Part shown: positions 39,143-64,000 of the stretch, piece by piece
How positions within the stretch are numbered: position 1 is the first letter of the stretch
Layout: every line of letters begins with the position of its first letter
Origin: a bacterium
GTDB taxonomy: Bacteria > Arandabacterota > Arandabacteria > Arandabacterales > Arandabacteraceae
Assembly: GCA_029933125.1 (NCBI GenBank)
Contig: JAOZOU010000006.1
Location: forward strand, 62,001-126,000
DNA length: 64,000 nt
Reading direction: 5' to 3'
The notes under the pieces: generated by a model
What the model saw: only the letters and a program-made list of their open reading frames with translations
The model's database searches: none
What the model was told of the DNA's origin: nothing
Translations under genes and position numbers: made by a program

Positions 39143-39296
39143 CTTTTTCTTTAAACCCTAAGGGGCTATCACGGGCGGGTGATCCCTCATGTCCCTATGC
39201 TATTCCATCCTGACCTCATGGTCAACCTGTGCAATTGACAAAACTATGTCAGTAATGCTAGCCTAAGGAGATTCAAGTCACGAGGAGCACGAGTCC

Positions 39297-40076
39297 TTGC
39301 AAACCAATATCGTATATCTTCTACAAATGGGCGGCGCAACAGGCGGAACCGATATTCTTATGCGAATAGTTCAAGTAGTGATAGCTGTTGCGTTCTTGAG
39401 TTTCATCTTGCAGAAACTTTTACCCGTCTTTCGCCGAACAACAATCTTTAGCAAGTGTGCCAGCTTGCGCTACATCGCGTTCGCCCATCGCCTCGTAACA
39501 GCCAATCCCAAGTTCATACTCCTACCCCTCGGATTTTATCTGGCTTCACTGCCTCTCAGAATTGTCAGGGACGTACTGGTTTACATTGCATTGGCGGAGC
39601 TTCGTCATTACCTAAACATTACCCCCTTTTTTCCGCTATCCTATAGATGCAAGACTGCTCTTCTTAGACTTCTTGATGCTCCATTCGGTCTTTTCGCTGG
39701 TTACATCAATCCATTCATGGGTAACGGTCTGCTGATATTTGCACCTGTCTTAGTCGGCATCCTTAGAGCCAGGTATGCTGATAAACTGCGGTTATTTGTA
39801 GGTGAAAGGGGGCTTGGGGAGGTTAATAGGCCTCTTAAGTGGAATAAGATTTTCCTTGCTGCAGCTGGTACTCTATTTGTAGTGGCAGCTTCGGTCTGGC
39901 ATTACGACGAGCAGATTGGGCATCTTGTAGCCGATATAAGCCTTCTTGCTGTAATAGCCTCACTTCTGGTCGTTGCCTCATGCATCGTCGCCTACCTAAT
40001 CACGTGGAGTGGTTCCCTAACAAGGGGTCTCGGGCTGGCCAGTCATGACCTCTTCTCGAAATCTTTGGGTAGCTAA
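39297..40076 (+). CDS. Polytopic membrane protein of unknown function, N-terminal part of a split reading frame
   Basis: Several hydrophobic segments; ends at TAA created by 15-bp duplication; same frame as next ORF. Confidence 0.6.
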   Translation: MQTNIVYLLQMGGATGGTDILMRIVQVVIAVAFLSFILQKLLPVFRRTTIFSKCASLRYIAFAHRLVTANPKFILLPLGFYLASLPLRIVRDVLVYIALAELRHYLNITPFFPLSYRCKTALLRLLDAPFGLFAGYINPFMGNGLLIFAPVLVGILRARYADKLRLFVGERGLGEVNRPLKWNKIFLAAAGTLFVVAASVWHYDEQIGHLVADISLLAVIASLLVVASCIVAYLITWSGSLTRGLGLASHDLFSKSLGS

Positions 40077-40089
40077 TCTTTGGGTAGCT
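40060..40089 (+). repeat. Perfect 15-bp tandem duplication (AATCTTTGGGTAGCT x2)
   Basis: Read directly: CGA-AATCTTTGGGTAGCT-AATCTTTGGGTAGCT-ATAAGCGG. Confidence 0.97.
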
Positions 40090-40637
40090 ATAAGCGGATA
40101 GTCCCCTTCCTGATTTTGTGGGTGATCCTTGTTTCCGCAAACAATGCGACCAGAGTCATGCTCACACCTCATATGATCCTCACAGGTTTTGGCGAAACGG
40201 TTGGGTCCTTATCGATCCAGAGACACCTCTACTTAATACAGACGCATCAGTTTTCAGTTTCACGACATATTGTTTTGATGATGTTTGTTCTCCTCATTGG
40301 TGGTTTGCCGATTGTTGTTTTGGGCAGCGGTGGAGGTTTCCGCAGTGTCACCAAACGCTACCTTGCTTTTATTGCTTCTCGTGCTGGGGAATATCTCAGG
40401 CTCATCTTAGTGCTATGTGGCTACACAAGCATATCCATCATTCTTTATTCTTTCATTAGTTTTGAGGTTGGCTCTTTAGGTGCTAGGGCAACCGTTCTCG
40501 ATATCCTAGCAACTGGTCTATGGATTCTTACCGGTGTAGTCGCGTTCGTAGCGATACACAAGTTCTTTATCGATCATGAAGGCGAGTGGGCAACGCCTCG
40601 AGAGGATACACCCTCAGACGCTATCGAGTCAGGATAG
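40080..40637 (+). CDS. C-terminal part of the same split membrane protein
   Basis: In frame with 39297 ORF; hydrophobic segments; no convincing own start (TTG inside the repeat). Confidence 0.5.
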   Translation: MGSYKRIVPFLILWVILVSANNATRVMLTPHMILTGFGETVGSLSIQRHLYLIQTHQFSVSRHIVLMMFVLLIGGLPIVVLGSGGGFRSVTKRYLAFIASRAGEYLRLILVLCGYTSISIILYSFISFEVGSLGARATVLDILATGLWILTGVVAFVAIHKFFIDHEGEWATPREDTPSDAIESG

Positions 40638-62610: not shown

Positions 62611-63861
62611 ATGCGAAAGACTCACTCACTTGTGGCACTTTGCGTTGTCGCGGTCACGATAGTTGTGATAGTGAGCCTAAAGGTTAACAAGAATGGCTCA
62701 GCCGAGCCTGAAGCAGCTCAGGTTAACCCGGGCAACTACTATCGCGTTGTAACAGATACGCTTACGAGGGGTGAGTCGCTTTATGAATCCATGATCGCAA
62801 ACAGGATCCCTGCATCGAGAGCTTTAGAAGTTCTCAAGGCACTTTCCTCAGAGCTTGATCCACGATTTTGCAAGCCTGGAGACAGCTACTCCGCTTGCAT
62901 CGACACCGGTGGCTCCATCATCTCGCTAACATTTCAGCGTGGGCTGACGGAGATCTACGTTGCTGAGCGCGATAGCAATGACTATCGAGTAAGTAGGGAG
63001 CATAGGGCTCTCACGCATCTAACAAGGCGAATCTCAGGAACGATCACAACATCTCTCTGGGAAGCATTTCTTGAGATGGGGGAGGATCCTGAAATTGCTC
63101 TCAAGCTTGCTGATGTCTTCGCCTGGGAGATTGACTTCCTCACCGATCCTCGCAAGGGTGACACTTTTGTCATAATCTTTGATGAGATCTATTGTGATGG
63201 TCGCAAGATCGGCCTGGGGGATATTCTGGGTGCCCGCTATGTCAATCGAGGCAAAGAATTTCTCGCATTTGGTTTTCCTGATGAAGACGGCAAGATGGAA
63301 TACTTTGATGCAGAAGGGAATTCGCTCGAGCGCGTCTTTCTCAAGTCGCCTCTGAGTTACCGCCGCATCTCATCCTATTTCTCGCGCAGGCGCTTCCATC
63401 CAATTCTAAGAATCTATCGTCCCCACTACGGTGTTGACTATGCCGCTCCGACTGGCACACCCGTTGTCTCAATAGGTGACGGGCGCGTCGTCTATGCTGG
63501 TTGGAAGGGGGGATTTGGGAAATACATTGAGATCAGACACAACAATGTCTATACCACATCCTATGGCCACCTTTCTCGATTCGCCCGAGGCATACGCAAG
63601 GGAATGAAAGTCAAGCAAGGACAGGTGATCGGCTATGTTGGGGCGACAGGTTTGGCAACAGGACCTCACCTTGATTTTCGCGTCAAACGCTTCGGTTCAT
63701 ATGTCAATCCTCTAACAGTCAACTATCCAAGAGCAAAACCCTTGCCTGAGCAGAAGAAGACAGAATTCTTTGCAAGAAGAGATATGATACTTTCAGGGCT
63801 TAAGCCCCAACAGGTAGCCTCATTAAGTGATAGCCCCCATGTCTCCTCAAGCAATCAATAG
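62611..63861 (+). CDS. M23/LytM-like peptidase
   Basis: HYGVDYAAPTGTPVVSIGDGRVVYAGWKGGFGKYIEIRHNNVYTTSYGHLSRFARGIRKGMKVKQGQVIGYVGATGLATGPHLDFRV. Confidence 0.93.
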   Translation: MRKTHSLVALCVVAVTIVVIVSLKVNKNGSAEPEAAQVNPGNYYRVVTDTLTRGESLYESMIANRIPASRALEVLKALSSELDPRFCKPGDSYSACIDTGGSIISLTFQRGLTEIYVAERDSNDYRVSREHRALTHLTRRISGTITTSLWEAFLEMGEDPEIALKLADVFAWEIDFLTDPRKGDTFVIIFDEIYCDGRKIGLGDILGARYVNRGKEFLAFGFPDEDGKMEYFDAEGNSLERVFLKSPLSYRRISSYFSRRRFHPILRIYRPHYGVDYAAPTGTPVVSIGDGRVVYAGWKGGFGKYIEIRHNNVYTTSYGHLSRFARGIRKGMKVKQGQVIGYVGATGLATGPHLDFRVKRFGSYVNPLTVNYPRAKPLPEQKKTEFFARRDMILSGLKPQQVASLSDSPHVSSSNQ

Positions 63862-64000
63862 CAGTCGCAGCAATCACAACAGTCGCAACAATCGCAGCAC
63901 TTCTGGCAGCAATCGTCGCAACATTCGTCGCATGCGGTAATCCAGCAGCAACCTGAGAAGAGGCTGGCTAAGATCAGAAGCATTGCAAGTGCCTTTTTCA
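63855..64000 (-). CDS. Cysteine-rich mini-lipoprotein with CCD repeats (start codon probably at 64001 or internal ATG at 63983)
   Basis: Minus-strand translation (M)KKALAMLLILASLFSGCCWITACDECCDDCCQKCCDCCDCCDCCDCY*: signal peptide, lipobox LFSGC, 16 Cys. Confidence 0.6.
   Translation of the reverse strand, partial: KKALAMLLILASLFSGCCWITACDECCDDCCQKCCDCCDCCDCCDCY

Follow-up and report, generated by a model that had tools for sequence, protein, structure and literature searches.

Two open frames joined across a single stop codon

We examined a 64-kb window, the whole stretch of DNA that was analysed, in which the open reading frames 39297-40076 (259 aa) and 40080-40637 (185 aa) lie in one common frame. 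The genes on either side are both on the opposite strand: a PAP2-family gene upstream and an M3-family oligopeptidase gene downstream. The joined span of ~446 codons contains one stop, located exactly at the junction of a short tandem duplication (Table 1). A random run of 445 codons would hold about 22 stops, with a probability of ~2e-10 of holding none; the frame on either side of the TAA is therefore very probably that of a real gene with one lesion. The likely start of this gene is TTG 39297, with GAGGAG nine bases ahead of it, and no Shine-Dalgarno sequence was found ahead of TTG 40080, the first start past the TAA. A hydropathy scan places ~9 membrane segments in the read-through protein, five ahead of the stop and four beyond. 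The arrangement of the sequence supports 39297-40637 being one interrupted gene for an orphan multi-pass membrane protein.

Codon models were applied to both parts of the gene. The overall model scores the annotated frame highest for each part, and a synonymous-only model places it clearly on top for the 5′ part, with a second frame drawing level in the 3′ part. Codon usage is low for the genome in the 5′ and 3′ parts alike (rank 18 of 233 genes for the former and rank 6 for the latter), making the gene model less certain than those of its neighbours. An AlphaFold prediction of the read-through protein, run with no alignment, was too poor for use (pLDDT 44, pTM 0.27). Recoding or readthrough at the TAA was judged unlikely, as the sequence carries no sign of it.

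Table 1. Features of the interrupted gene and other short duplications in the assembly
Feature	Position	Strand	Remarks
5′ part of orphan membrane-protein gene	39297..40076	+	Ends at junction TAA; ~5 predicted TM segments
3′ part, same frame	40077..40637	+	TTG 40080 is the candidate start; ~4 TM segments predicted
Possible ribosome-binding site GAGGAG	39282..39287	+	Before TTG 39297; proposed from sequence
AATCTTTGGGTAGCT, copy 1, 15 bp	40060..40074	+	Sequence and self-match
AATCTTTGGGTAGCT, copy 2, 15 bp	40075..40089	+	Extra matching base A at 40090
TAA stop made by the repeat junction	40074..40076	+	Sequence and frame
12-bp perfect in-frame duplication	L105:4169		ORF stays open
16-bp perfect tandem duplication ATCATATCGAAACCTG	L108:13266-13297 = C176:139266-139297		On the window's contig but outside the window, at a distance of ~37 kb

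A perfect 15-bp tandem duplication at the junction

Reading the sequence directly, we found AATCTTTGGGTAGCT twice back to back at 40060-40090, and a self-match at an offset of 15 gives a run of 16 bases there, confirming the perfect 15-bp tandem duplication described in a first-pass annotation of this DNA. The frame across the junction reads TCG AAA TCT TTG GGT AGC TAA TCT TTG GGT AGC TAT AAG CGG, in which the junction alone gives rise to the TAA that ends the upstream ORF, as that annotation had also proposed. Its estimate of a joined protein of ~441 aa agrees with our count, since the product has 446 residues on read-through and 441 once the five repeated codons are subtracted. The repeat consists of two 15-bp copies spanning 31 bp in total, with no array of many short units. 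Its ends have one common base beyond the unit, which gives no sign of microhomology-driven duplication.

No second perfect tandem duplication in the window has a unit that reaches 10 bp. Twelve simulated windows that kept the trinucleotide make-up of the real one yielded two chance duplications; each had a period of 10, and no period reached 12. The 16-mer at 40060-40090 has no second site genome-wide with up to one mismatch allowed, and a search of the assembly for a one-copy allele recovered the two-copy allele alone.

Homologues and gene neighbourhood

Searches of family and structure libraries (Pfam, NCBIfam, PHROGs, PDB sequences) returned sub-threshold matches or none for the orphan protein, and no homologue was found in 385 other genomes, including seven of the same class, one of which belongs to the same genus. 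The same was true of plasmids, viral contigs and genome contigs queried with the 5′ part, and of phages queried with the 3′ part. No uninterrupted form of the protein came to light. Among the collections searched, there was no related gene with a variable repeat copy number. Two family relatives (G004 and G002) keep the M3 peptidase and have other genes in the adjacent slot, and the contig of the same-genus genome G001 ends inside the M3 peptidase. The nearest named relatives of this peptidase come from draft genomes that bear the label Candidatus Zixiibacteriota, a hint, short of proof, as to where the organism broadly belongs. The interrupted membrane protein thus lacks a detectable homologue even within its genus and family and has codon usage that is odd for the genome; because of these two features, the gene may be recently acquired or fast-evolving.

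Short duplications elsewhere in the assembly

We surveyed a 652-kb sample of the same assembly, comprising contigs C176 and C120 nearly whole and smaller contigs. With one low-complexity stretch and one contig end set aside, only three perfect duplications in it had a unit that reached 12 bp. The ATCATATCGAAACCTG duplication, on the same contig (C176) as the window, breaks a CsoR-type metal repressor gene, the open span of which would be continuous were the duplication collapsed. The first part of this CsoR-like gene matches PF02583 (Trns_repr_metal; E-value 9.6e-21), the match running as far as profile position 56 of 78, and the 16-bp unit, not being a multiple of 3, causes a frameshift. A scan of the 356-kb contig C120 in 20-kb pieces brought up no short perfect duplication of this length.

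Perfect two-copy duplications of 12-16 bp were also present in 1.47 Mb of other genomes, with a few in each Mb. None of the clear cases there breaks an ORF that could be reopened by collapsing the repeat; two loci, L091 and L029, are ambiguous. The genome is thus not clearly enriched in short duplications, yet two on one contig break genes, and gene-breaking microduplications are not special to the orphan membrane-protein gene. Close to the CsoR-like gene and likewise outside the window, the ORF L108:13401-14237 on C176 is a fusion in which N-terminal sequence of an outer-membrane efflux protein (PF02321) runs on into the C-terminal end of an RND pump (PF00873). It looks like an in-frame loss of several kb of an efflux operon, either by real decay or by misassembly.

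Origin of the interruption

We lean towards a recent, ordinary and non-programmed 15-bp tandem duplication that disables a lineage-specific orphan membrane-protein gene. A replication-slippage-type event would have duplicated 15 bp inside the gene and so lengthened it by five codons, among them, by accident, the TAA at the junction. Starting at TTG 39297, translation would then stop after 259 residues and leave a fragment of ~5 helices, so that the gene would probably be inactive in the assembled genome and its product non-functional. As in a pseudogene, a single disabling lesion sits in an otherwise open frame, and the absence of other lesions in that frame suggests that the duplication is recent; slippage is its presumed origin. 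Since other genomes carry a few duplications of 12-16 bp in every Mb, nothing out of the ordinary is required for a natural origin. Only ~1-2% of the possible 15-bp duplications in these frames yield a stop, so the junction TAA is a result that a random event would seldom give, though at a locus that was picked for being striking.

The main rival to a recent lesion is an assembly or consensus artefact, in which an overlap of ~15-16 bp was left untrimmed at the join of two pieces and the true chromosome carries the unit once, in an undamaged gene. The window belongs to a draft genome of 176 contigs, and the two clearest short perfect duplications of the 652 kb, both with 16-base identical runs, are on C176 and cut otherwise continuous frames. 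The odd efflux/RND fusion ORF close by could be a further assembly fault, and together with the second broken gene it raises the odds of untrimmed overlaps at both sites. Against this, the sequence on either side of 40060-40090 is continuous in frame, the uniqueness of the 16-mer means that there is no repeat to break the assembly graph at this point, independently assembled genomes show a similar rate of short perfect duplications, and C120 shows none. We regard an artefact as a real possibility, though less likely than a recent lesion. It is improbable, in turn, that there are two proteins, the first ending normally at the TAA and the second made from TTG 40080, either independently or by coupling. 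Each of the two parts is an open frame with several TM helices, and this TTG starts three bases past the stop, a spacing compatible with translational coupling; however, it has no Shine-Dalgarno sequence and is located within the second repeat copy, and the perfection of the repeat implies a young junction.

A reversible switch, with the membrane protein turned on and off in the population through gain or loss of one 15-bp unit and its junction stop, appears very improbable. The unit is tandem and a multiple of 3, so that losing one copy reopens the frame, and pneumococcal capsule genes that switch by spontaneous in-ORF duplications provide a precedent; from that precedent it follows that a switch is possible, not that it is used. 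The repeat at 40060-40090 has two copies and no array, however, the assembly holds one allele, no relative with a variable repeat was found, and the orphan gene has no known surface-antigen, contingency-gene or regulatory context. Moreover, the similar duplication elsewhere in the assembly strikes a cytoplasmic regulator, and because the CsoR-like gene is broken in the same manner, random lesions or an assembly-join artefact are favoured over an evolved switch. Of the three readings offered by the first-pass annotation (switch, recent lesion or assembly artefact), what finds support is the interruption of a single gene, given the common frame, a 3′ half without a ribosome-binding site and no other lesion; the switch finds none, in view of the two copies, the one allele, the missing variable relative and the 16-bp CsoR-like case. 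A programmed switch at 40060-40090 is unsupported, and the simplest reading, a recent disabling duplication, is unrelated to regulation. Copy loss by ordinary mutation could still reopen the frame, and its use as a switch is not indicated.

Comparison with known systems

Simple-sequence contingency loci, which are phase-variable microsatellites, consist of numerous short units that slip at a high rate. As in those loci, repeat copy number sets whether the frame of the orphan gene is open, and a change in copy number alters what is read at 40060-40090; in contrast to their arrays of several short units with a high slippage rate, the orphan gene has two 15-bp copies. The CsoR-like gene offers a likeness within the assembly, as it too is cut in an otherwise continuous frame by a perfect two-copy duplication of near-equal length. 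The two differ in that a 16-bp unit shifts the frame of a conserved cytoplasmic repressor in one case, whereas a 15-bp unit interrupts a membrane protein in the other.

In pneumococcus, phase variation of the capsule genes cap3A, cap8E/wchA and tts by spontaneous tandem duplications within the ORF is described by Waite et al. (2001, 2003; cited in PMC4292784 and PMC4022640), and a serotype 8 case is mentioned in PMC4022640. There, as here, an in-ORF tandem duplication inactivates the gene and precise loss of a copy can restore it. Phase variation of the pneumococcal capsule genes was observed in cultures, whereas the orphan gene is represented by one assembled allele known from sequence alone. 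Apart from the pneumococcal cases, our literature search returned nothing directly on short two-copy duplications acting as switches. A switch at 40060-40090, if true, would be an example from an uncultured bacterium of duplication-based phase variation, the mechanism of which is known from pneumococcus. If the repeat is instead a lesion or an artefact, its value lies mainly in annotation, in that 39297-40076 and 40080-40637 are to be treated as one interrupted gene.

Two places on contig C176, 40060-40090 and the CsoR-like gene, call for caution. Further repeats were seen on it. The contig start (L105:1-287), outside the window, carries a 120-bp tandem repeat with a matching run of 167 bases; contigs often end within repeats. 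Inside the window, positions 63850-63896 hold an imperfect tandem array with 9/18-bp units resembling AGCAATCAACAACAGTCGC.
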